Assembly (NCBI GenBank): GCA_039802005.1
Contig: JBDRVV010000014.1
Span: 1,451-64,415, forward strand
Source: a candidate division WOR-3 bacterium
Lineage (GTDB): Bacteria > Hydrothermota > Tepidihabitantia > SM23-42 > JAOAFX01
Reading direction: 5' to 3'
Length of the DNA: 62,965 nt
In this document: one piece after another, positions 2,644-54,285 of the stretch
Layout of the letters: every line of letters begins with the position of its first letter
Numbering within the stretch: the first letter of the stretch is position 1
Translations under genes and position numbers: made by a program
Notes under the pieces: model-generated
Database searches by the model: none
What the model was told of the DNA's origin: nothing
Seen by the model: the letters and a program-made list of their open reading frames with translations, nothing else

Positions 2644-2672
2644 TTGACATATTCTGAATTATAGTATATAAT
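2644..2672 (+). promoter_or_regulatory. Promoter of the HTH/SARP-like regulator gene
   Basis: TTGACA at 2644-2649, 17-nt spacer, TATAAT at 2667-2672: both hexamers match the sigma-70 consensus exactly. The predicted start of transcription (~2679) is about 3 nt before the ATG at 2682, so the message is almost leaderless. Confidence 0.85.
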
Positions 2673-2681
2673 TTACCGCAG

Positions 2682-4907
2682 ATGCATAACAAACAAAGAG
2701 AATTATTTTATGGGGTCATTGACGAATATTTTAAAAATAAATCTTCAATCAGAAAGACCGCAAAAAAATTTAATCTCCATTATCAAACAGTCTTTAAATG
2801 GCTGAAATATTTTAAAAAATTTAGGACGCAACCGCTGTTTCGTCCCTGGAATCGGTCTCCAGGGTATATTGAAAATAAGGTTATAAAGTATAAAGAAAAT
2901 TACCCGTGGCTCACGCTGGAACAGACACGGAAGGTATTGCTCAAGAAGAAAATAAAAATCACCAGCCGTGGAATATGGAATATCTGGAAAAGATATGGAT
3001 ATTCTGGCTTTGATCGTTTGAACATTTGCAATGACTTTACCGAATTCATTATTCCTTCTCAGGAAACAAAGTTAAAGTTAGAAGATGCAGAGCGGCTATT
3101 TAATGATGGCAAAATGAAAGAATCAGCGATAATTTTAAATTCCTTACCCCCGCTACCAAAGAATGAATTAGTTTTAAAATTACCGGAAAAACTCTTGAAT
3201 ACAAGGCGCAAGATTGAAAGATTGACAATGGAATTCGGCAAAATCCCATTGTCGGAATATATCAAAAAAGCAAAAATACTCTATAAAAAATCTATCAAGA
3301 ATGAGTGGAATTATTCGGCATTAAGAATTGGTATGGCTTTGCTTGTTGCATTATCCTGGCTTGGCAATCCTGAAGAACAAAGGAGGTGGACAGAAAAAAT
3401 TGAAAAACTTCTACCTGATAATAATAGAAAAGCCAAAGATTTAATGCCAATTCGTTTTACCCTACTTATTTCAAAATGCCACACCCTGGTGCAAATGTTA
3501 AAATTGACTGAAGCATTCCGTCTTGCCCGTCATTGCTATCATCTTGTATCACAACACAAAAGTCCATTTTATGAACTCCTCTATGACCTTGCAGTCCAGT
3601 TCATAGACCTTGAAGACTATAATACTGCAGAAAAATTGCTTCTCAAAGCCCTTGAAGGCGTTGACGAACAAAGAAAGAAAAGGTTGAAGATGTTACTCGC
3701 TATTTATGTTCATTTATTGAGATGCAACAAAAATAATGCATTGAAACTTCTAAATGAAGCAGAAATCTATGATTGGGCAAAGGATGCCCAGTTGTCACGA
3801 TTTCGGGCTCTGTTTGCATTGATTGAAGGTAGGCCATCAGAAGCTTTTAGCTTAGCACAAAATGCTTTAAATGCCTCAAGAGGAGCAGGACTTCTGAACG
3901 ATATTAACAATGCCTATCTGGCAATGGCAAGTGCTTATATGTGTCTGGGTGAAAAAGAAAGAGCAAGGTCGTTATTGATTGATTTGAAGAAATTTTTGAA
4001 AAAAAGAAAAATGAAAAGGCAGTTGTTGATTACCAACATCCTTCTGCAAAAAATTCCACAAAATAAAGAATTTTTCAAATTATCTACAATCAAACTTGCC
4101 TGGGTATTAAAAAACAGGGGTTATATGGAAGCATATCAGTTTGCCGTCAGGAAAGGCATCCTGTTTTATTTTTATCGTTATCTATTCTTCTACCCCGATT
4201 TTGTTCAGAAAAGGATTGCAAAGAATAGACCAACTTATCTACCTAAGGCAATTCTGCGCCTGCCGATATTTAATACAAAAACCGATGTGTACCACATAAA
4301 TTTATTAGGCAAATTAATCATTTTCCGCAATCAAAGATATCACAAATTTTATCTTTCGCCAAAGGATGGTGCAATACTTTTGTTTATTATCACCAGAATC
4401 AATGAACCAGAAAAATCATTGAATTTAAATGAACTCTACGAAAATTTCTGGTCAAAAAGTAAGAATCCAGCAAGGATTTTCTCCCACAGTTTAGTCCGAA
4501 TAAAAAGGGCTCTTAAAATTCCTGCCCATTATTTAGAGATAAAAAGACATAACGGGGAATCTTATCTAATCAATCAAAACATTTATTTTACCACCGACTA
4601 TCAGGAATTTGAGCAGACCATTACCCGGGCAAAGGCGCTGGAGCGGGCAGGTGAATGGGGATTTGCAAAAAAAGAATATTTAAGGGCATTTAAGTTGTTT
4701 CGTGGCGAGCCGTTTAAGAAGAATTTTGATAGCTGGTCGGTGGATATGAGATTTAGAATTTTGAGTCAGTTTGAGACCGAGGCGATAAATTTTGCTAAGA
4801 GTTGTATAGAACATGGCAATAAAAACGATGCACGAAAAATTTTGCAAAAAGTCTTGAGAATAATCCCTGATTCAGAAGAGTCTCAAAAAATATTTGAGAC
4901 TCTTTGA
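2682..4907 (+). CDS. Large transcriptional regulator: transposase-type HTH, TPR-like helices, SARP-like C-terminus
   Basis: Predicted DNA-binding regulator of 741 aa; target unknown. Residues ~1-110 hold two helix-turn-helix segments (SIRKTAKKFNLHYQTVFKWL, then TLEQTRKVLLKKKIKITSRG) like the N-terminal HTH of IS630-type transposases, but no DDE catalytic domain follows. Residues ~130-480 are helical and look TPR-like (repeated AL..A...G...A patterns). Residues ~540-741 resemble a winged helix followed by a bacterial transcriptional activator (BTAD) region, with an AGEWGFAKKEYLRAFKLFRG stretch typical of SARP/LuxR-type activators. No Shine-Dalgarno is visible and the ATG is about 3 nt from the predicted transcript start. 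It is divergent from the BNR-repeat gene and could regulate it. Two DNA-binding ends in one chain is unusual. Confidence 0.78.
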   Translation: MHNKQRELFYGVIDEYFKNKSSIRKTAKKFNLHYQTVFKWLKYFKKFRTQPLFRPWNRSPGYIENKVIKYKENYPWLTLEQTRKVLLKKKIKITSRGIWNIWKRYGYSGFDRLNICNDFTEFIIPSQETKLKLEDAERLFNDGKMKESAIILNSLPPLPKNELVLKLPEKLLNTRRKIERLTMEFGKIPLSEYIKKAKILYKKSIKNEWNYSALRIGMALLVALSWLGNPEEQRRWTEKIEKLLPDNNRKAKDLMPIRFTLLISKCHTLVQMLKLTEAFRLARHCYHLVSQHKSPFYELLYDLAVQFIDLEDYNTAEKLLLKALEGVDEQRKKRLKMLLAIYVHLLRCNKNNALKLLNEAEIYDWAKDAQLSRFRALFALIEGRPSEAFSLAQNALNASRGAGLLNDINNAYLAMASAYMCLGEKERARSLLIDLKKFLKKRKMKRQLLITNILLQKIPQNKEFFKLSTIKLAWVLKNRGYMEAYQFAVRKGILFYFYRYLFFYPDFVQKRIAKNRPTYLPKAILRLPIFNTKTDVYHINLLGKLIIFRNQRYHKFYLSPKDGAILLFIITRINEPEKSLNLNELYENFWSKSKNPARIFSHSLVRIKRALKIPAHYLEIKRHNGESYLINQNIYFTTDYQEFEQTITRAKALERAGEWGFAKKEYLRAFKLFRGEPFKKNFDSWSVDMRFRILSQFETEAINFAKSCIEHGNKNDARKILQKVLRIIPDSEESQKIFETL

Positions 4908-8821: not shown

Positions 8822-8849
8822 TTGACACTGCAAAATAATTAAATATAAT
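8822..8849 (+). promoter_or_regulatory. Promoter of topA-nfo
   Basis: TTGACA (8822-8827), 16-nt spacer, TATAAT (8844-8849), a perfect consensus match. Predicted transcript start 8856-8857 coincides with the GTG start codon. Confidence 0.88.
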
Positions 8850-8856
8850 AAAAATT

Positions 8857-10998
8857 GTGAGCAAAGGCAAAAAAGTCATAGTTGTGGAGTCTCCAACAAA
8901 AGCCAAGACGATAAAATCATTTCTTGGCAGGGAATATACAATTGTATCATCAAGGGGACATATCAAGGATCTGCCAAAATCAGATCTTGGGGTAAAAATA
9001 GAAAATAACTTTGAACCAAAATATATAAAAATAAAGGGAAAGGCAAAAATAATTAACGAAATCAAGAATGTTTGTAAGAATTCGGCGAAAATTTACATAG
9101 CGTCAGACCCTGACCGTGAAGGTGAAGCAATTGCCCAGCATATCGCTGAAGAATTGAATTCAAGTGCACCAATTATAAAAAGGGCATTATTTCATGAAAT
9201 CACCCCCGAATATGTAAGAAAAGCACTTCAAAACCCGGTTTCAATAGACCCCAATCTGGTTGATGCGCATAAGGCACGCCGGGTTCTTGACCGTATTGTA
9301 GGTTATTTTACAAGTCCATTTTTATGGAAGGTCATAAAATCGGGACTCTCAGCAGGAAGGGTACAGAGCGTTGCATTAAGGCTAATATGTGAAAGAGAAA
9401 AAGAAATTGAATCTTTCCAACCAACGCCTTACTGGAATATTTCGGGCACATTTTTAACAAATGCAAATGAATCCTTCAATGCCAATCTGATAAAAATTGA
9501 AGGTGTCCAAAGAAAAGTGCTATCAGAAGAAGAGCTCAATAATATCAAAAATATTTTGAAACCGAACACAAAGTTTACGGTAACGATTTACAGAATAACA
9601 ACCCCCGAGAAGATCCCGGCTCCACCCTTCATCACATCTACGCTTCAGCAGGAGGCTTCAAGGCAATTCAACATAACTCCCAAAAAAACAATGCAGATCG
9701 CCCAGAGCTTGTACGAAGGAATACACCTTCCGCAAGGGACAATTGGTTTGATTACATATATGAGAACCGATTCCACAAGGGTGAATGACCAGGCAATCGA
9801 ATCGGTAAGAGAATACATTGATGGAAAGTTTGGAAGCGACTATCTTCCCAAGGAACCAAGAAAGTTCAAAGATAAAAAAAGTGCGCAGTCCGGGCATGAA
9901 GCAATCAGACCAACAAGAATCAACATTGAACCTGATTCAATAATTGATTACCTTACCCCTGATCAGTATAAAATATATAAATTGATATTCGACCGTTTTG
10001 TTGCATCACAGATGGCAAATGCTCGATATGAATTAAAAGAAGTCTTTTTTGAATATATGGGTCTTGAATTCAAGGCAGAAGAAACAAAGCCTCTATTCCT
10101 TGGTTATCAGCTGTTAACCGGTGAAACAATCCAAAGAGGTTTTGTACCAAAACTCAAGGTCGGTGATACGGTAATCTTACAGCAAATCAATATTGAAGAA
10201 AAACAGACCGAACCCCTGCCAAGATTTACTGAAGCAACATTAATCAAAAAATTAGAAGAAAATGGAATTGGCAGACCTTCTACCTATGCCCATATCATAC
10301 AAACTTTATTTGACCGTAGATATATAATTAAAAATAATGGAAAATTAATTCCAACCGACCTGGGCAGAGAAGTATATAATATAATTATCCCCAGATTCAA
10401 CAATATCTTTGAAATACCATTCACCGCCCGAATGGAAGAAGAACTTGACCTCGTTGAAGCAGGAAAGAAAAAATGGCAAGAAGTTGTTAAAGAATTTTAC
10501 GAACCGTTTGCAAAAGTTGTAAATCAAGCAAATGCAGATGCAGAAAGTATAAAGAAAAATATTCAGCAGACAATTGATAAAATTTGTCCGCAGTGTGGGA
10601 GACCTATGGTGATTAGATGGGGTAAATACGGCAAATTTCTTGCCTGTTCAGGATTTCCTGAGTGTAAATATTCAGAAAATCTTGAAGTTCAAATCACAAA
10701 TAAAACCTGTCCAAAATGCGGTAAGGCACTCGTGATTAAAAAAGGAAAATATGGTGAATTCCTTGCCTGCAGTGGTTATCCAGAATGCAAATACACGGAA
10801 AACCTTACCCACGATGTTCCTTGTCCTGTTTGTAGCGGCACGGTGATAATCTTATCTGGTAAAAAGGGTCGGATATATAAATGTAAGGCATGTGGATTCA
10901 GTTCTTTTTATCCACCTACAGAACAAAAATGCCCGCAATGTGGTAAAGGCACGGTTTTAAAGAAAAACAAACCATTCTGTCTCAGTTGCAAAAAATAA
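8857..10998 (+). CDS. topA: DNA topoisomerase I
   Basis: Type IA topoisomerase that relaxes negative supercoils through a 5'-phosphotyrosine intermediate; 713 aa. Toprim at the N-terminus (VIVVESPTKAKTI, then ASDPDREGEAIA at ~82-93), the DAHKARRVLDRIVGY segment, and the active-site Tyr301 in GLITYMRTDSTRV. The C-terminus has four Cys4-type zinc ribbons (first CPQCG at ~577; a fourth shorter one ends the protein). The start is GTG, with no Shine-Dalgarno; the -10 box ends 7 nt before it, so translation is probably leaderless. nfo follows 13 nt after the stop and should be co-transcribed. Confidence 0.97.
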   Translation: MSKGKKVIVVESPTKAKTIKSFLGREYTIVSSRGHIKDLPKSDLGVKIENNFEPKYIKIKGKAKIINEIKNVCKNSAKIYIASDPDREGEAIAQHIAEELNSSAPIIKRALFHEITPEYVRKALQNPVSIDPNLVDAHKARRVLDRIVGYFTSPFLWKVIKSGLSAGRVQSVALRLICEREKEIESFQPTPYWNISGTFLTNANESFNANLIKIEGVQRKVLSEEELNNIKNILKPNTKFTVTIYRITTPEKIPAPPFITSTLQQEASRQFNITPKKTMQIAQSLYEGIHLPQGTIGLITYMRTDSTRVNDQAIESVREYIDGKFGSDYLPKEPRKFKDKKSAQSGHEAIRPTRINIEPDSIIDYLTPDQYKIYKLIFDRFVASQMANARYELKEVFFEYMGLEFKAEETKPLFLGYQLLTGETIQRGFVPKLKVGDTVILQQINIEEKQTEPLPRFTEATLIKKLEENGIGRPSTYAHIIQTLFDRRYIIKNNGKLIPTDLGREVYNIIIPRFNNIFEIPFTARMEEELDLVEAGKKKWQEVVKEFYEPFAKVVNQANADAESIKKNIQQTIDKICPQCGRPMVIRWGKYGKFLACSGFPECKYSENLEVQITNKTCPKCGKALVIKKGKYGEFLACSGYPECKYTENLTHDVPCPVCSGTVIILSGKKGRIYKCKACGFSSFYPPTEQKCPQCGKGTVLKKNKPFCLSCKK

Positions 10999-15835: not shown

Positions 15836-18800
15836 TTATCTCAACAACACCGCCTTCTCAATCTGCTTATAATCTCCAGCCTCCAACCGCACAAAATAAA
15901 CACCGGCAGGCAACTTGCGACCTAAATCATCACGACCATCCCAAACCAACTGGTTAAATGGTTGAATGGTTAAATGGTTAAATTGCTTAACTACCCGACC
16001 CGAAACATCGTATACACTCAATGAGATTTCGGATTTCGGATTTCGAATTTCGAATTTAATCACAAGGTGATCCCTGCAAGGATTCGGGCAAATCTGCAAA
16101 TCTAATTTTACAGGTTGTAGTTTTGAAGTTTTATCTTCAGCGATTCCGTGTAAACAACCAAAAAAATGCATAATTGAATCAAGCAAAACAGCCCTGGTTG
16201 AAGGTGGTGTTCCATCAAAAAGTGCTCCAAGTTCAAAAGAAGTCGCAACTGTACGATAGATTCCCGCATCATAGGCAACCCCGCAATCAAAATAATTATC
16301 TGTGTCTCTAAAGATTAAAAATGAACCGGGATTTAAAGGACTTATATGGTCCATCCATTCATTCTCACCAGCGTAATTAAAATCCATTCCCTGGGTAAAT
16401 GTTCCAGCAATACCTCCGATTGGTCCCATATTTGACCCACCGTCATCAATTGGGTTTAATCCAAATAGATTTGAAAAATCATAGCCACCCATCATCGGAT
16501 CGTAATACCACACATCACCACCTTCCATATACAATCTACCACCAGACAATGCAAAATCAACCAACCTCTGCGCTTCGGCACTACCCGATTGAATAACATA
16601 GTTATTTGGGAATACCCCTAAACAGACAAATACACAATTGTAGAGATTCAAAATTTGAGGTAGATTTGCACTGATTTCACCTGAGTAGCCCAGACTGGTT
16701 AGTATATTGTGCATATTCTGCCCCGGCTGTGGGGTCAAATCAGGATTCCAAATAAAATAATCTTTCTTTCCGATAACGATAGAAAATGATATTGTATCAT
16801 GATAGAATAAAGAATATAATACCATCTGAAATTCTGCGGATGTTCCCGGAAGGGTTAATGAGTCTGCATATACAATGAATGGGTCTAAATCATTTACTGC
16901 TGAAGAATCAATACCAATATGCGGATAACTTCCAGTTGAATCAGTAATGACCGTATAATTTGAAAGGCCTTGCAATATTGCATACACACTATCAATTGGT
17001 GAATGTCCCGTATTTTTTATCTTTACCTTGACAAATACGGTCTCACCCGGTTCCAGATTAGAATTGCCATTTCCACCACTGATTAAAATTTCAAGGAGAG
17101 TCAATTCCGGAGCAAAAACCGGATGGTTGAAATGCGAAATCCATATCGAATCATTCATATCTTTACAGATCAAATCAAAAGTTATATTGTGTAGGTCAGG
17201 ACAATTTGTGGCTATAGAAAAAACATATCCACTATCACCCGTATAAGATGAATCTCTGCCCTGAATTTCACCAAACCATTTTATTGAATCAAAAATCGTT
17301 GTATATATATCGTTCGTCCTCAATAATCCAAAAACATTATGGGCTGTGCTGTCTCCCCAGTTTTTTATCCACAATGGTAAATTAATCATTTCCCCCGGAT
17401 TAATAAGATTATTGTTATTACCGTATAATGAATCATCAATAACGGATTTCAAATATACTACATAAGGTATTTCTGAGTTTTGAACAGTCATATAACCTTC
17501 ATACGGTTTTAAGTTTTTCCCTGTTACCGTGACATAAATTGTATCTTGAACAATCAATGGATTTATTGAAAAGTAAGCCTGACCATTAATGTCCGTTGTA
17601 TCAAGGACATAGACCCCGGAATCCTGTTTTGCCATTACACAAACAAAGGCATTACTTATTGGTGATAAATCCACTGCTTTATTGACTGCTACTGTAAAGT
17701 TTGCACTACCATAAGGAATCATTTGCGGATGTATTACCAGAAGTGAGCAGGGCGGTGCAGTCCAGATACCCATCTCCGGGTCGCCGATTGTAGTGAACCC
17801 AACATATTCCTCATCACCCCCGGAATATGGATACATAGTATAAACCCTTACTCTGCCGCCCTCACACGCTTCGCCAAAAGTCCTTTTCCCATCAAAAAAT
17901 ACTGCATCAAAAAAGCCGCGCGATACCGCGCTCCTCAAGAATGTAATAAACCCGCCACCGACTGTAGTTGTAGCAAACAAACCAGCGCCGCCTCTCAAAT
18001 TTGTGGGTGAACCGGTGAGAAACCATCTCTCTACCTGGGCAGGTGTCGAACCGGTGCCAATGGTTCTACAAGTAATTGAAAGAACGATAGGTAATTTTGT
18101 GCCATTTGTGGTCAGATCTGGGTTACAATCAAAAGGTGGATACCATTGTCCAAGGCCTGTTCCACGATAAAGCAAAAATCCCCTGCCACTATTTATTGAT
18201 TGATATACACTGTAGGCATTATTACCAAGACCAGCGGACAGGGTATCAATCAAATCATAGCCATTAGAAAGCATTAGATTCTTTGCTTGACGAACATCAT
18301 TCCAATAGACTGTATCATTACCGATTGGTGGATAATAACCATTGTCTTCATTGGCAATAAGACATGCCCGCTTGAACCAGAAGGTATCTGCAGTATTCGG
18401 GTAACGCTCATAAGCAATAATCTTTTGAACAACGGTCTGAACTTCGGTTGTATTATGGACAGTCAACCTTCCTGAGAGAATTTCATTATATAAATTGTCA
18501 TCCATGTTAGTATAATAATTATCTGAATTCCAACCAAGTACAAGAGGAAAGGGTATATAATTGGGGGCACCAACAAAAAGAATGTACTCAGGTTTTACAA
18601 TCCAGTTATTATAAGCATTAACAATATAATCCCTTATCTGGGGCGCAGTTGAGCCAATTTCAGATAATCTTACAACCTTTGTGCGCATTCCTTTCTTATG
18701 TTTCCACTGCGCAAGTGGTAGAATATCATTATAAAAATTATCATGGGTGATTATTAAATATCGCGCACCAATCTCCTGACAATATCCTGTAATAACAAAA

Positions 18801-18838
18801 ATTGCAATCATAAAAAGCCATCTTCGGAAGTAATGCAT
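15836..18838 (-). CDS. C25-family (gingipain-like) protein with substituted catalytic His, sorting domain
   Basis: Secreted 1000-aa protein with a signal peptide (MHYFRRWLFMIAIFVITGYC). Residues ~25-400 form the C25 fold: YLIITHDNFYNDILPLAQWK, YILFVGAPNYIPF, the expected Cys at 257 (IVLSITCRTIG), and TTIGDPEMGIW at its end. Where family members have a GHG motif, this one reads YRGTGLGQW, so Thr227 replaces the catalytic His. It may be inactive, or a binding protein. Residues ~480-690 are Ig-like/CARDB-type repeats, and a ~150-aa ThuA-like or FlhF-like stretch follows (PDLTPQPGQNMHNILTSLGY). The C-terminus is a sorting domain with a short NPKSE repeat and, in the second loop, a different repeat (NHLTIQPFNQ). 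AGGA precedes the ATG. Confidence 0.82.
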   Translation of the reverse strand: MHYFRRWLFMIAIFVITGYCQEIGARYLIITHDNFYNDILPLAQWKHKKGMRTKVVRLSEIGSTAPQIRDYIVNAYNNWIVKPEYILFVGAPNYIPFPLVLGWNSDNYYTNMDDNLYNEILSGRLTVHNTTEVQTVVQKIIAYERYPNTADTFWFKRACLIANEDNGYYPPIGNDTVYWNDVRQAKNLMLSNGYDLIDTLSAGLGNNAYSVYQSINSGRGFLLYRGTGLGQWYPPFDCNPDLTTNGTKLPIVLSITCRTIGTGSTPAQVERWFLTGSPTNLRGGAGLFATTTVGGGFITFLRSAVSRGFFDAVFFDGKRTFGEACEGGRVRVYTMYPYSGGDEEYVGFTTIGDPEMGIWTAPPCSLLVIHPQMIPYGSANFTVAVNKAVDLSPISNAFVCVMAKQDSGVYVLDTTDINGQAYFSINPLIVQDTIYVTVTGKNLKPYEGYMTVQNSEIPYVVYLKSVIDDSLYGNNNNLINPGEMINLPLWIKNWGDSTAHNVFGLLRTNDIYTTIFDSIKWFGEIQGRDSSYTGDSGYVFSIATNCPDLHNITFDLICKDMNDSIWISHFNHPVFAPELTLLEILISGGNGNSNLEPGETVFVKVKIKNTGHSPIDSVYAILQGLSNYTVITDSTGSYPHIGIDSSAVNDLDPFIVYADSLTLPGTSAEFQMVLYSLFYHDTISFSIVIGKKDYFIWNPDLTPQPGQNMHNILTSLGYSGEISANLPQILNLYNCVFVCLGVFPNNYVIQSGSAEAQRLVDFALSGGRLYMEGGDVWYYDPMMGGYDFSNLFGLNPIDDGGSNMGPIGGIAGTFTQGMDFNYAGENEWMDHISPLNPGSFLIFRDTDNYFDCGVAYDAGIYRTVATSFELGALFDGTPPSTRAVLLDSIMHFFGCLHGIAEDKTSKLQPVKLDLQICPNPCRDHLVIKFEIRNPKSEISLSVYDVSGRVVKQFNHLTIQPFNQLVWDGRDDLGRKLPAGVYFVRLEAGDYKQIEKAVLLR

Positions 18839-26409: not shown

Positions 26410-26481
26410 TCACTCCTTTCTATAGTTATTCAAAAGTTGACCATATGTCTTGTTTTTTTCCCTATCATCACCTCCTTTCAT
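26410..26481 (-). CDS. Putative 23-aa leader ORF before the S8 peptidase
   Basis: ATG at 26481, TGA at 26412-26410; product begins MKGGDDREKNK and ends NNYRKE. The ATG lies about 3 nt from the predicted transcript start, so it would be read without a leader. The stop overlaps the Shine-Dalgarno region of the main gene and leaves 2 nt to its ATG, a layout that permits translational coupling. Codons 2-6 contain the 13-nt GAAAGGAGGTGAT, a full match to the canonical complement of the 16S 3' end. It may be only a structured 5' UTR; nothing in the peptide is recognisable. Confidence 0.3.
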   Translation of the reverse strand: MKGGDDREKNKTYGQLLNNYRKE

Positions 26482-26490
26482 ATATAGAAT

Positions 26491-26518
26491 ATTATATTTA
26501 AATTCAAATTGATGTCAA
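26491..26518 (-). promoter_or_regulatory. Promoter of the S8 peptidase gene
   Basis: Minus strand TTGACA (26518-26513), 16-nt spacer, TATAAT (26496-26491). Predicted start ~26484, giving a 77-nt leader. Confidence 0.85.
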
Positions 26519-40979: not shown

Positions 40980-41423
40980 TTAGTTCTCCTCAATCGGTAT
41001 AATATATTCTTTTAAAACAGAAAATTCTATTGTCAAAATCCCATGTTTTAATTTATATCTTCCATATTGTGGGTCAACGGGTAAAGGAAATTCTATCCTT
41101 CTAAAAAATCTACCATAGGCAATCTCAAGATTATGAAAAACCACATTTTGTCTCTTTGTACTTTGCTCTGCTATTTTAGGCTTTTTAGTTCCCGTAACTG
41201 TCATATGATTCTGTCCGACATATATCGTAATATCTTTTAATTCCACCCCGGGTATTTCAATAATAACAAATATCTTCTCATCGATGATATACAAATCATA
41301 AAGGGGTTGCCAGTTTATAAAATAATCTGTGCTATATTCTTCAGCCAATGTTTTATCTTTCTCAAAAATTATTCTGATTTCAGAAATATCAATATTATCC
41401 ATACCCGTATTATTCTGCTTCAT
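40980..41423 (-). CDS. Small heat-shock protein (Hsp20/alpha-crystallin)
   Basis: Holdase chaperone of 147 aa that binds unfolding proteins and passes them to other systems. The alpha-crystallin domain lies at ~35-140: WQPLYDLYIIDEKIFVIIEI, PGVELKDITIYVGQNHMTVTG, GRFFRRIEFPLPVD and YKLKHGILTIEF. The C-terminal I-x-I-type tail is weak (IIPIEEN). It is the first gene of a six-gene run to the PHP gene. No Shine-Dalgarno is present; TATAAT ends 5 nt before ATG, so the mRNA starts at the start codon. No CIRCE-type operator is visible. Confidence 0.93.
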   Translation of the reverse strand: MKQNNTGMDNIDISEIRIIFEKDKTLAEEYSTDYFINWQPLYDLYIIDEKIFVIIEIPGVELKDITIYVGQNHMTVTGTKKPKIAEQSTKRQNVVFHNLEIAYGRFFRRIEFPLPVDPQYGRYKLKHGILTIEFSVLKEYIIPIEEN

Positions 41424-41428
41424 AGTAA

Positions 41429-41456
41429 ATTATATATCAAATACTATTCCTGTCAA
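41429..41456 (-). promoter_or_regulatory. Promoter of the hsp20-lon operon
   Basis: Minus strand TTGACA (41456-41451), 16-nt spacer, TATAAT (41434-41429), then TTACT and the ATG. It is a perfect housekeeping-type promoter, so heat induction by a dedicated sigma factor is not indicated. It lies directly after the porX stop. Confidence 0.9.
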
Positions 41457-49759: not shown

Positions 49760-49841
49760 TGCGAGGAGGGGGAGTTGAACCCCCAACCTTTGCAGGACTG
49801 GATCCTAAATCCAGCGCGTATGCCAGTTCCGCCATCCTCGC
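49760..49841 (-). tRNA. tRNA-Leu (anticodon TAG)
   Basis: 82-nt class II tRNA. Acceptor GCGAGGA pairs with TCCTCGC, the anticodon arm is CTGGA-TTTAGGA-TCCAG with TAG as anticodon, the variable arm is long and the T-loop is GGTTCAACTCC-type. Discriminator A; CCA is not encoded. It is 38 nt upstream of the tig start. Confidence 0.95.
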
Positions 49842-49869
49842 AAAAACTAAAATAAACGCTCATTACTTA

Positions 49870-49897
49870 ATTATATCCTAAAAAAATATGATGTCAA
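49870..49897 (-). promoter_or_regulatory. Promoter of tRNA-Leu and the tig-clp-por operon
   Basis: Minus strand TTGACA (49897-49892), 16-nt spacer, TATAAT (49875-49870), a perfect match. Predicted start ~49863, 22 nt before the tRNA. No other promoter is visible before tig. Confidence 0.88.
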
Positions 49898-50053: not shown

Positions 50054-51034
50054 TCACCTCACTGTAAACCCCGCAATCAAATTATGGGTCTGGTAATGGG
50101 GCACAAAATTATAGTCATAATGAATGAAGAAAATTCCCAGTTTAAATGTAGCACCTAAAATTGCTCGATAACTATTCTGGGCAACAAGTTCAACATCCAC
50201 CTCCTTGGTAGTCTTTATTTTATTTCCGGGATTTAATGTATCAGGGATTTCGAATTCAAATTCATAAGTAAAGTGAACTTTTGTGCCTTCAAAGCCGAAT
50301 CCTGCCATGGGTTCAAAAACAATCAAGTTTTTGGAAATAATCATCTGCACATTCCAGGTATGGCTTGCAACAATCTTATAACCTGTAGAATCCATTATCC
50401 CAAAATCCTGGGTAGCACCACCAATAGCAATATCAAAAGGTAGGGACACATTCTTCATAAACGGCAGACTATTTATATGCTGTTTCAATCCTACCCCAAG
50501 AAATTGTACCCTTGAACCCTTAAAAGTAAATGGCATATACCTGATGCAAATCTCTGACCCCATTATAAGACCAACATTCAATTGGGGTATTGCAAGTGGA
50601 ACGACCGGAAGATTAAAACCACCAGGGATATAGGGTGGGATACCAACTGCATTACCTGTAACTGGCACATTTGTTCTCTCTTTAGGTCCGAATATTGTAC
50701 TCACACTATCAAGAACCAGGGAATCATAAACAAGTGTATTATTGGCAAGCGAACAGGTTAGAACCTTTGCGTCAAAATACTTACCCATTTCTGGTATCTG
50801 AATGAACATACCCCTTACGCCGATATCAAATCCCAGAAATTTATGACTCCTTGCGCTATGAAAAAGGCCTGTTGAAATTCCGGTTCCGAATGATGTTATT
50901 AACGGCTGCGTATAGCCTTCAAGCAGGTCCTCGCTTACTTTTTTTATCTTCTCTGCCAGTGCCTCATAATTCTGCTGTGCAAAGAGAGAAGCGATACATA
51001 AAACGACCAATAATATGATTTTTTTTACTTTCAT
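50054..51034 (-). CDS. Exported beta-barrel-like protein (DUF6588-like), function unknown
   Basis: 326 aa with a clear signal peptide (MKVKKIILLVVLCIASLFA, cut before QQNYEAL). The rest is strand-rich with alternating polar and hydrophobic residues. It begins with a short helix (EALAEKIKKVSEDLLEGYTQ) and a GFDIGVRGMFIQIP strand, and ends FNVPH-type: YDYNFVPHYQTHNLIAGFTVR. This pattern suggests an outer-membrane barrel like DUF6588 proteins. It is a single gene with its own promoter and terminator. There is no Shine-Dalgarno; ATG is 8 nt after the -10. Confidence 0.72.
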   Translation of the reverse strand: MKVKKIILLVVLCIASLFAQQNYEALAEKIKKVSEDLLEGYTQPLITSFGTGISTGLFHSARSHKFLGFDIGVRGMFIQIPEMGKYFDAKVLTCSLANNTLVYDSLVLDSVSTIFGPKERTNVPVTGNAVGIPPYIPGGFNLPVVPLAIPQLNVGLIMGSEICIRYMPFTFKGSRVQFLGVGLKQHINSLPFMKNVSLPFDIAIGGATQDFGIMDSTGYKIVASHTWNVQMIISKNLIVFEPMAGFGFEGTKVHFTYEFEFEIPDTLNPGNKIKTTKEVDVELVAQNSYRAILGATFKLGIFFIHYDYNFVPHYQTHNLIAGFTVR

Positions 51035-51042
51035 AGTAGATA

Positions 51043-51070
51043 AGTATAACTATATATGACAATCTGTCAA
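51043..51070 (-). promoter_or_regulatory. Promoter of the barrel-like protein gene
   Basis: Minus strand TTGACA (51070-51065), 16-nt spacer, TATACT (51048-51043). Predicted start ~51036, about 2 nt before ATG 51034. Confidence 0.83.
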
Positions 51071-51399: not shown

Positions 51400-51425
51400 G
51401 TTTATTGCATTGAACAAGCAAGATA

Positions 51426-51453
51426 ATTATATAAAATTTTTTCTTTATGTCAA
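51426..51453 (-). promoter_or_regulatory. Promoter of tRNA-Asp
   Basis: Minus strand TTGACA (51453-51448), 16-nt spacer, TATAAT (51431-51426). It lies directly behind the stop of the nucleoside kinase gene (51457). Predicted start ~51419. Confidence 0.87.
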
Positions 51454-51456
51454 GAC

Positions 51457-52941
51457 TTAATAAACAAATGAACTGCCGCCGATAAATTCTCTCAAAATTG
51501 AATTTGAAGGGACATCGCGGTCGTTTAAATCATAAAAAAATGCAAAATAATCAAGAAGTCTTTTTGCTTCAGGATAAAGGGGATCATCTTTATTTACTTT
51601 TTTAAGGAGCGGTACACAATATTTCTTCAACACCGCTGATTCGTATATAAGGGCAGAATTAAACATTTCATCCGCCTCTTCCTGGAACGGATAAATATTT
51701 TGTTCTTCACCCGCCCTGACCCTACCCCATTGTGTCAAAACACCCTGGACCGTATAACCGCGATAATGTGTATCCCTGACAATCCTGCGCATCATTCTCG
51801 TATCAGTCGTTGAAATGCGATTATGGTCGTCAATATTTAACTGGGTAAGGGCACTGATATATATCTTGAATTTTATATTTTTGGGAACAAGCGGCGTCAA
51901 TTCTTCATTCAAAGAGTGTATCCCTTCAACCATAACAATTCCGTTTCTTGGTAATTTTACAACCCTTCCTTTTTCACGCCTGCCTTTTATAAAATTGAAT
52001 TTTGGTATTAAAACCCTTTCACCCTTTATAATAGAAAGGAGATGCTTATTTAATAGAGGTATATCTACCGCCCTTATTGTCTCAAAATCAAGCCTGCCAA
52101 ATTTATCTTTTGGAGTTTTACTATGGGGCAAAAAATAATCATCTGTTGAAATCAAAATCGGTCTAAAACCATTTACCATTAACTGCACAGCGAGCCTTTT
52201 TGTAAATGTTGTTTTTCCTGCGCTACTTGGACCAGCAATTAATAATACACGCCTCTTTTCTGATGTGATGCGGTCAGCTATATAGACAATCTTTTTTTCA
52301 TGAAGTGCCTCTGCCACTCTAATTATATCCGGACCCTCTCCATTTTTTATAGCAATGTTTAAATCAGCAATATCAGTAATACCAAGAATCTGGACCCACT
52401 TCAGGTATTCACTAAAAATCCGTGCTAATTTTGGCTGTGGTATGTATGGTGGTAAGGAATCAAGATTCTGCCAGTTCGGAAATACAATTATAAAACCCGG
52501 GGGGAAATTGGTTAAATAAAATTTATCAACCATACCAGTTCTTTCAAATGGTGGGTTGGGATAAAAATCAAAATATTTATCTATCTTAAAAACCTTTATT
52601 TTATTTATATTTATGTTTCTAAAAAGTCTTACCTTATCCTTCTGCCCCTGTCTTTCAAATATTCTTATAGCCTCACCTCTTGGCAATAAAAATTTCTGAA
52701 TCGGTAAATCTGCCCTGATTATTTCGCGCATCTTTAAATCAATTGCAATCAAATCCTTATCAATCAATTTTCTATTGAGAAGACAATAAAATCCCTGACT
52801 CATTGAATGTTCAATACGCAACGCAGAATCTGGAAATAATTTTTTTGTTGCCACATAAAGGATAAAAGAAAGCGTTGATTGATAACGACGCCATTGATTC
52901 AGACAATTTATTTCGTCAATGCATTTTTTTTGATTGTCCAT
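51457..52941 (-). CDS. Nucleoside (uridine-type) kinase with ThrRS-SAD-like N-terminus
   Basis: Cytoplasmic kinase of 494 aa expected to phosphorylate uridine/cytidine or a similar nucleoside. The first ~200 residues match the second-additional-domain-like region of these enzymes (STLSFILYVATKKLFPDSAL, HSMSQGFYCLL), but the TGS domain often found before it is absent. The P-loop kinase domain starts at ~235 with Walker A GPSSAGKTTFTKRL, then ISTDDYFLPHSKTP, FDFET-type GRLDFETIRAVDIP and VMVEGIHSLNEELTPLV. The ATG at 52941 is preferred to GTG 52947 because AAGGGG sits correctly for it. It overlaps the yggS end by 26 nt and is probably expressed from the yggS promoter. Confidence 0.9.
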   Translation of the reverse strand: MDNQKKCIDEINCLNQWRRYQSTLSFILYVATKKLFPDSALRIEHSMSQGFYCLLNRKLIDKDLIAIDLKMREIIRADLPIQKFLLPRGEAIRIFERQGQKDKVRLFRNININKIKVFKIDKYFDFYPNPPFERTGMVDKFYLTNFPPGFIIVFPNWQNLDSLPPYIPQPKLARIFSEYLKWVQILGITDIADLNIAIKNGEGPDIIRVAEALHEKKIVYIADRITSEKRRVLLIAGPSSAGKTTFTKRLAVQLMVNGFRPILISTDDYFLPHSKTPKDKFGRLDFETIRAVDIPLLNKHLLSIIKGERVLIPKFNFIKGRREKGRVVKLPRNGIVMVEGIHSLNEELTPLVPKNIKFKIYISALTQLNIDDHNRISTTDTRMMRRIVRDTHYRGYTVQGVLTQWGRVRAGEEQNIYPFQEEADEMFNSALIYESAVLKKYCVPLLKKVNKDDPLYPEAKRLLDYFAFFYDLNDRDVPSNSILREFIGGSSFVY

Positions 52942-53620
52942 ATTCACCCCTTGGTCCGAAGATTGCAGTTCCGATACGGACCATATTTGAGCCTTCTTCT
53001 ATTGCTATTTCAAAATCAGAAGTCATCCCCATTGATAAAATAGGAAAATCCTGGTCAAACGCCTGTGCTAATTCATCACGCAGGTCATGCAATAATTTAA
53101 AAGAACCCCTTGATGCCTCAGGGTCAGTGATTGCCCAGCCCGGTCCGATAGTCATCAATCCTTGAATACGGATTTTCTTAAAATCTTTTATAGATTCATA
53201 AAATTCAAATAGTTGTTCTGGTTTGACCCCAAATTTTGTTGGCTCACCCGATGTATTAACCTCAATCAAACAATCAACCATCCCAGTTGCCCTTTTCTCA
53301 ATCTCTTCAGCAAGTTTTATCGAATCAAGGCTATGGATAAGGCTAAATATCTTCAAGGCATCCTTGACTTTATTCGTCTGAAGATGCCCGACCAGATGCC
53401 ACTGTACTTTATTGCCAATAATTGCGAATTTCTCCTTTGCCTCCTGTACCCTATTTTCACCAATGATCGCAATCCCGCAATCAATCGCCTGTTGGATAAT
53501 ATCTGGCGGCACGGTCTTGGTCACGGCAATGATTGTTATTTCTTCGGGGTTTCTGCCCACCCGCTCTGCCGCATTTTTTATCCTTTCTTTGAGCCGGGCA
53601 ATATTCTCTTTGATCTCCAT
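52916..53620 (-). CDS. yggS: YggS/PLPBP-family pyridoxal phosphate homeostasis protein
   Basis: 234-aa PLP-binding alanine-racemase-fold protein that buffers PLP and affects amino-acid pools. Seen: TIIAVTKTVPPD with the PLP-binding Lys, IGENRVQEAKEK, WHLVGHLQTNKVK, CLIEVNTSGEPTKFG, IQGLMTIGPG, LSMGMTSDFEIAIEEGSNMVRIGTAIFG, the full family series. ATG 53620 is chosen over TTG 53626, because the TTG lies inside the -10 region. There is no Shine-Dalgarno: the -10 ends 5 nt before the ATG. Confidence 0.96.
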   Translation of the reverse strand: MEIKENIARLKERIKNAAERVGRNPEEITIIAVTKTVPPDIIQQAIDCGIAIIGENRVQEAKEKFAIIGNKVQWHLVGHLQTNKVKDALKIFSLIHSLDSIKLAEEIEKRATGMVDCLIEVNTSGEPTKFGVKPEQLFEFYESIKDFKKIRIQGLMTIGPGWAITDPEASRGSFKLLHDLRDELAQAFDQDFPILSMGMTSDFEIAIEEGSNMVRIGTAIFGPRGEYGQSKKMH

Positions 53621-53625
53621 TGTCA

Positions 53626-53653
53626 ATTATACAAAAATGAAAAAAATTGTCAA
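53626..53653 (-). promoter_or_regulatory. Promoter of yggS-nucleoside kinase
   Basis: Minus strand TTGACA (53653-53648), 16-nt spacer, TATAAT (53631-53626), then TGACA and ATG. Perfect hexamers; the predicted transcript begins at the start codon. Confidence 0.9.
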
Positions 53654-53841: not shown

Positions 53842-53869
53842 TTGACTAAAGATTGTTTTTAAATATAAT
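53842..53869 (+). promoter_or_regulatory. Promoter of the PEGA-like protein gene
   Basis: TTGACT (53842-53847), 16-nt spacer, TATAAT (53864-53869), then TTTCT and ATGATG. The predicted transcript starts at the start codon. Confidence 0.85.
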
Positions 53870-53874
53870 TTTCT

Positions 53875-54285
53875 ATGATGATATTTTTATTATTTCTCCA
53901 ACTAAATGATGGTTATTTAACTGTAAAGGCAGATAAAGATGGTCTGCCTGTATTTGTTGATGATGACTATATCGGCAATACTCCAATAGTCAAATATCCG
54001 CTCAAACCTGACGAATATAATGTGGGATTCTTCCCCCAGGATTCAATTGAAACTGCATCCTATCAGTTCAAAAGCGGGAATATTGGTGCCTTGTGGCGTA
54101 TTGCAAAATTCGGCGAAGGAACTGTAAAGGTACGGATTGAAGCGAATAAAGAGACAATTGTTGAATTAAACTATCAGGCTGTGCGCTCAGCACCAAGTAA
54201 AGCAAAGGCAAAAGTCTTCAGTTGTCTTGGTGGGGTATTTATTCTTGGCATCCTCGCAACCTTAGGCTTCCAGGCAATTTTTTAG
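53875..54285 (+). CDS. Small PEGA-domain-like membrane protein
   Basis: 136 aa. A short hydrophobic N-terminus (MMIFLLFLQL) precedes a PEGA-like beta domain (GYLTVKADKDGLPVFVDDDY, IGNTPIVKYPLKPDEYNVGF), found in surface proteins of many bacteria. A Lys-rich linker (APSKAKAKV) and a C-terminal membrane helix (GGVFILGILATLGFQAIF) follow, so it is likely anchored in the inner membrane with the domain outside the cytoplasm. No Shine-Dalgarno; ATGATG follows the -10 by 5 nt, so the first or second ATG could be used. It is convergent with the next gene, 31 nt apart. Confidence 0.72.
   Translation: MMIFLLFLQLNDGYLTVKADKDGLPVFVDDDYIGNTPIVKYPLKPDEYNVGFFPQDSIETASYQFKSGNIGALWRIAKFGEGTVKVRIEANKETIVELNYQAVRSAPSKAKAKVFSCLGGVFILGILATLGFQAIF

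Follow-up and report, generated by a model that had tools for sequence, protein, structure and literature searches.

The window, which is the whole stretch of 62,965 nt analysed here, belongs to a WOR-3 MAG and holds six genes whose start codons lie 5-9 nt behind a promoter. The features concerned are given below, together with one led gene for contrast.

41421-41456, minus strand: predicted leaderless promoter of hsp20; TTGACA 41456-41451, N16, TATAAT 41434-41429, N5, ATG 41423-41421
40980-41423, minus strand: Hsp20/alpha-crystallin gene, 147 aa, no SD; Pfam HSP20, E 1e-7
53618-53653, minus strand: predicted leaderless promoter of yggS; TTGACA 53653-53648, N16, TATAAT 53631-53626, N5, ATG 53620-53618
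52916-53620, minus strand: YggS-type gene (alanine racemase N-terminal domain; PLP fold), 234 aa, no SD; Pfam Ala_racemase_N, E 4e-21
53842-53877, plus strand: predicted leaderless promoter of the 53875 gene; TTGACT 53842, N16, TATAAT 53864-53869, N5, ATG
53875-54285, plus strand: small protein with hydrophobic N-terminus, 136 aa; no Pfam match
8822-8859, plus strand: predicted leaderless promoter of topA; TTGACA, N16, TATAAT, N7, GTG 8857
8857-10998, plus strand: topA, DNA topoisomerase I, GTG start, no SD; Pfam Topoisom_bac, E 9e-122
51032-51070, minus strand: promoter of the 51034 gene; TTGACA, N16, TATACT, N8, ATG
50054-51034, minus strand: gene for a DUF6588 protein with N-terminal signal, predicted leaderless (N8); Pfam DUF6588, E 1e-51
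2644-2684, plus strand: promoter of the 2682 gene; TTGACA, N17, TATAAT, N9, ATG
2682-4907, plus strand: gene for a TPR-repeat protein, predicted leaderless or with an ultra-short leader (N9); Pfam TPR matches
15836-18838, minus strand: led gene for contrast, C25-peptidase surface protein; TTGACT...TATAAT 15 nt before ATG; Pfam Peptidase_C25, Por_Secre_tail

All six sites were located in the sequence with the -10 boxes and distances to the start codon that the original prediction had described, and each of them also carries a near-perfect -35 box (TTGACA or TTGACT), which had gone unmentioned there. The spacer is 16 nt long (17 nt at 2682), the -10 box reads TATAAT or TATACT, and 5, 5, 5, 7, 8 or 9 nt then lead to the ATG or GTG; the hsp20 promoter reaches a PWM score of 13.0. 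The claim that the cited genes have no Shine-Dalgarno (SD) site also agrees with the sequence, as 6/6 of them have no GGAGG-type site 4-10 nt upstream of the start, while the description of the 53875 product as PEGA-like found no backing in Pfam. For yggS, whose orthologues align from residue 1, the true start is predicted to be ATG 53620, and TTG 53626, the start in the ORF list, is an artefact two codons early that coincides with the final base of the -10 box.

Three further places in the window deserve mention. The C25 peptidase at 15836-18838 (minus strand) carries C-terminal sorting domains of the Por/CHU_C type, which in a genome of WOR-3 suggest type IX-like secretion. At 26410-26518 (minus strand), a strong promoter lies 9 nt ahead of a 23-codon ORF, MKGGDDREKNKTYGQLLNNYRKE, and the stop of this ORF runs into the start region of the large downstream gene (ATG 26407), an arrangement that resembles a leaderless coupled leader peptide. 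Finally, consensus TTGACA-N16-TATAAT sequences just upstream of tRNA-Leu and tRNA-Asp (49841-49897 and 51400-51453, both minus strand) offer a calibration of the sigma consensus.

Beyond the window, 857 kb of the 2.54-Mb MAG with 641 genes, a third of the genome, were analysed in detail, with gene starts called from coding potential alone by a home-made caller that is blind to upstream signals and that truncated some starts, notably shortening some signal-peptide genes. In this sample the distance from the end of TATAAT to the start codon has its mode at 5 nt (23 genes), followed by 6 nt (12 genes), against about one gene per position far upstream, and TTGAC peaks at 28-31 nt from the start. 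The peak at 5-9 nt that the original prediction proposed to look for is thus present in this third of the genome, at 5-6 nt. Scoring with a two-box matrix placed a promoter 3-11 nt before the start in 93 of the 641 genes (14.5%; 35 at N5 and 25 at N6), whereas shuffled upstream regions gave at most 0.5 matches at leaderless distances. A -10-like signal some 10 bp ahead of the start, by which TA-led genes are defined, therefore occurs beyond chance and culminates at N5-N6. An SD site is absent in 91 of these 93 genes and present in 298 of the 548 others. In the histogram of strong-promoter distances, counts are down to 0-1 at 12-13 nt, and a second rise at 14-24 nt marks the onset of the SD-led genes; about 42% of strong intergenic promoters run straight into a gene with no leader in between. 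A class of leaderless small ORFs or uORFs was rejected: promoters untied to called genes yielded only a handful of ORFs of 10-60 codons, and the excess ATGs mostly trace back to genes that the caller had truncated at the start.

The same arrangement was found in relatives. Pattern matches per genome number 80-190 in the order, 6-79 in the rest of the class and 0-62 elsewhere in the phylum, and in the MAG itself the ratio of N3-9 to N20-26 is about 2.4. For orthologue pairs whose alignment begins at the first residues, both members are leaderless in 18 of 20 cases for the congener and in 8 of 11 for an order-mate, while SD genes in this comparison mostly remain SD or drop below the SD threshold. 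The spacers of the leaderless pairs agree with an identity of 0.51 (congener) and 0.31 (order-mate); the identity of the -35 and -10 boxes is high, partly by construction, since a passing promoter score was required of both members. The window genes themselves follow suit: in the congener (G069), hsp20 has the same N5 arrangement, the 53875 orthologue likewise shows TATAAT-N5-ATG and the 2682 orthologue again has N9, and the 51034 orthologues have N10 in G069 and N7 in G087.

The picture is clearest for yggS: of the order's 23 genomes, 22 have TTGAC-N16-TATAAT-N5/6 followed by ATG or GTG while the spacer diverges, and the arrangement is found at 27 of the 30 loci read in the class. At all loci read of the families f6 (3/3) and f10 (2/2), a promoter lies 6-7 nt ahead of a start codon. 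The sole exception in the order is yggS of G067 (L242), which has an AAGGA site where the others have the leaderless promoter and seems to have changed its initiation mode. In our reading, individual genes of the order have kept the leaderless state stably, apparently under selection, and yggS has done so through much of the class.

Since the genome has 38% GC, we were concerned that TATAAT might come to lie near an ATG by accident. The signal named by the original prediction, TATAAT-N5-ATG, is indeed not significant by itself, with four occurrences in the window, only twice the expectation of 2.02, and 15 of 100 shuffles reaching four. The -10-only criterion does not suffice, and the window case stands once the -35 box is included: TTGACN-N15-17-TATAAT-N5-9-RTG is found eight times against 0.04 expected, at five gene starts, at one place just upstream of tRNA-Leu and at the promoters of two led genes, in which the RTG is probably an accidental ATG. 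In the whole genome, the plain two-box pattern yields 202 matches compared with four for the reversed control, and 28 genomes of other phyla, Clostridia included, contain 0-18. Besides, the peak at N5-6 is repeated in the congener, in an order-mate of 49% GC and in a class member of 53% GC, so that AT-richness is not its cause. An accident of composition was therefore rejected on the strength of the two-box window count, the reversed control and the relatives of higher GC, and we consider its likelihood close to nil. The promoters may, on the other hand, be real and the adjacent ATG unused, with translation beginning at an internal in-frame codon that has its own SD site. An SD-preceded internal start within 30 codons is carried by 9 of the 93 leaderless genes of the MAG, but this rate is close to that of the controls (24/298 and 18/223), and for lack of any excess internal SD starts were rejected. 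Such starts would also sit poorly with orthologues that align from residue 1, with substitutions in leaderless orthologue pairs that fall predominantly on third codon positions from codon 2 on, and with a distance between promoter and ATG that is kept to within 1-2 nt in most orthologues; we regard this explanation as very unlikely.

RNA polymerases can initiate 5-9 nt after the -10 box. Transcription from 7-9 nt would cut into the ATG, and the protein might then be made from a promoter farther upstream with a normal leader; secondary upstream promoters are conceivable at individual genes. The position of the transcript start was calibrated on SD-led promoters, where an ATG cannot bias the outcome, and in three of four genomes the pyrimidine-purine (YR) step reaches its highest frequency 6 nt past the -10 box (0.48 in the MAG, 0.44 in G069 and 0.38 in G087), while the peak was not seen among the 30 promoters of the class-level genome G058. 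In N5 genes, position 6 is the A of the ATG; here T occupies -1 in 86% of leaderless genes compared with 40% of SD genes, and A dominates at +1. Moreover, a longer transcript would find no SD site in 91 of the 93 genes. In view of these data, a supply of the proteins from upstream promoters has only a slim chance of being the general answer, and initiation at the promoter-adjacent start codon is the reading we retain.

Which polymerase would be responsible can be approached from the promoters themselves. Of the leaderless promoters 89 of 93 have a 16-nt spacer, and of the led ones 68 of 71, within the 16-18 nt expected between TTGACA and TATAAT; in 84% of the leaderless promoters the base at spacer position 13 is T. 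The 16-nt spacer is likewise preferred in a distant WOR-3 family, while matches in phyla other than WOR-3 prefer 17 nt. A strong match to region 3 of a primary-type sigma-70 was obtained in 9 of the 11 genomes searched, including the MAG, where one primary-type protein and one shorter alternative matched. A separate sigma factor for the leaderless genes was considered and rejected, as the led promoters have identical hexamers and the same 16-nt spacer, and for this reason the same polymerase probably serves both.

The original prediction had also proposed that two initiation modes coexist. The anti-SD sequence at the 16S 3' end, GGATCACCTCCTTT, is intact in order-mates (the MAG itself is without a 16S), and with an SD site in more than half of the genes outside the leaderless set, the coexistence of leaderless and SD-led initiation in this genome is strongly supported. 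The further proposal, that housekeeping and stress genes are leaderless and surface peptidases led, holds only as a statistical tendency. An N-terminal signal or anchor is predicted for 31% of leaderless and 52% of SD-led proteins in promoter-anchored sets from four genomes (pooled p = 4e-5), and the difference is significant on its own in two of the four; the test was anchored on promoters because start truncation biases the version based on gene calls, although both point in the same direction. Among the leaderless genes sampled are those for ribosomal protein L13, a class II tRNA synthetase, an EPSP-synthase-family (MurA-type) enzyme, RibBA, ScpA and iPGM. The leaderless class, however, also holds lipoproteins, an S9-family peptidase and a surface protein with a Por-type secretion tail, and the SD-led class includes ribosomal protein L2, DAHP synthase and a CoA ligase, so a sharp functional division is unsupported.

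We propose that the primary sigma factor of this WOR-3 lineage recognises TTGACW-N16-TATAAT and that at roughly 40% of strong intergenic promoters the polymerase would start, for N5-N6, on the start codon's first base and, for N7-N11, 1-5 nt ahead of that codon. As the promoter is placed at the start codon, the resulting mRNA would have neither a leader nor an SD site, and the ribosome would have to recognise a 5'-terminal AUG or GUG, probably through 70S or IF2-dependent initiation, like that of the known cases; genes at N8-N11 may have leaders of 2-5 nt. Many other genes would use the same promoter class farther upstream, combined with a GGAGG-type site read by the intact anti-SD. The motif, its spacing, the absence of SD sites, the conservation, a reading frame that begins at that very codon and the anti-SD of the order-mates are all direct observations. 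We infer from them that the 5' ends of the transcripts lie at the start codon, that the leaderless mRNAs are translated and that the sigma factor acting is the primary one. We put the probability of this explanation as a whole at about 90%, and the claim that leaderless initiation is common is strongly supported at the sequence level by the distance peak, the conservation in relatives and the calibration of the start step.

A broader reading, to which we attach rather less than even odds and which we offer as a tentative idea, is that in the WOR-3 phylum leaderless initiation is ancient and tied to particular genes, that it became fixed at housekeeping genes such as yggS (in families f1, f2, f6 and f10) and is maintained there by selection, that the phylum is a further deeply leaderless-rich one beside Actinobacteria and Deinococcota, and that differential control of translation separates these genes from those for exported proteins. 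In any case, an uncultured phylum would join the bacterial groups with a large predicted leaderless share, and the persistence of the leaderless state with particular genes across large protein distances offers a case in which to examine how and why a gene keeps or changes its initiation mode, as in yggS of G067. There is a practical side as well: start codons assigned in WOR-3 MAGs by SD-oriented gene callers may often be wrong, ORF callers that accept TTG would begin yggS at 53626, with similar errors likely in other WOR-3 annotations, and the promoter model TTGACW-N16-TATAAT can be used to correct start annotation in WOR-3.

Leaderless genes with a -10 signal near the start are well documented, hence the mechanism itself is not new. 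In the open-access literature, no text was found that pairs 'leaderless' with 'WOR-3' or 'Shine-Dalgarno' with 'Stahlbacteria'; as far as this literature shows, the prevalence in WOR-3, the gene-by-gene conservation there and the promoter with a 16-nt spacer are new. Leaderless (TA-led) genes, in which the -10 signal precedes the start codon by about 10 bp, were reported in 207 of 953 genomes, typified by Actinobacteria, where they make up about 20% of genes (Zheng et al., 2011; PMC3160421). The WOR-3 genes resemble them in the TA-like -10 signal at about 10 bp, in the lack of an SD site and in their occurrence alongside SD-led genes; the phylum, however, is not among the groups listed there, and it differs in having both hexamers near consensus, a 16-nt spacer, a low-GC genome and a strict count of 14.5% of genes. 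In mycobacteria, two initiation modes share one genome and leaderless initiation is common, as demonstrated by RNA-seq and ribosome profiling (Shell et al., 2015; PMC4633059), whereas the WOR-3 case is made from sequence; small leaderless ORFs, likewise reported for mycobacteria, are not clearly enriched in the WOR-3 genome. In Deinococcus-Thermus, a -10 motif (TANNNT, most often TACACT) stands 6-7 bp before about 30% of ORFs (PMC12340547), and the WOR-3 gap of 5-6 nt between box and start is close to this, though in a different lineage. Both groups have the ORF-adjacent -10 box, its conservation among orthologues, coexisting GGAG sites and little functional bias, whereas WOR-3 combines TATAAT with a full TTGAC -35 box before about 12-15% of its genes.
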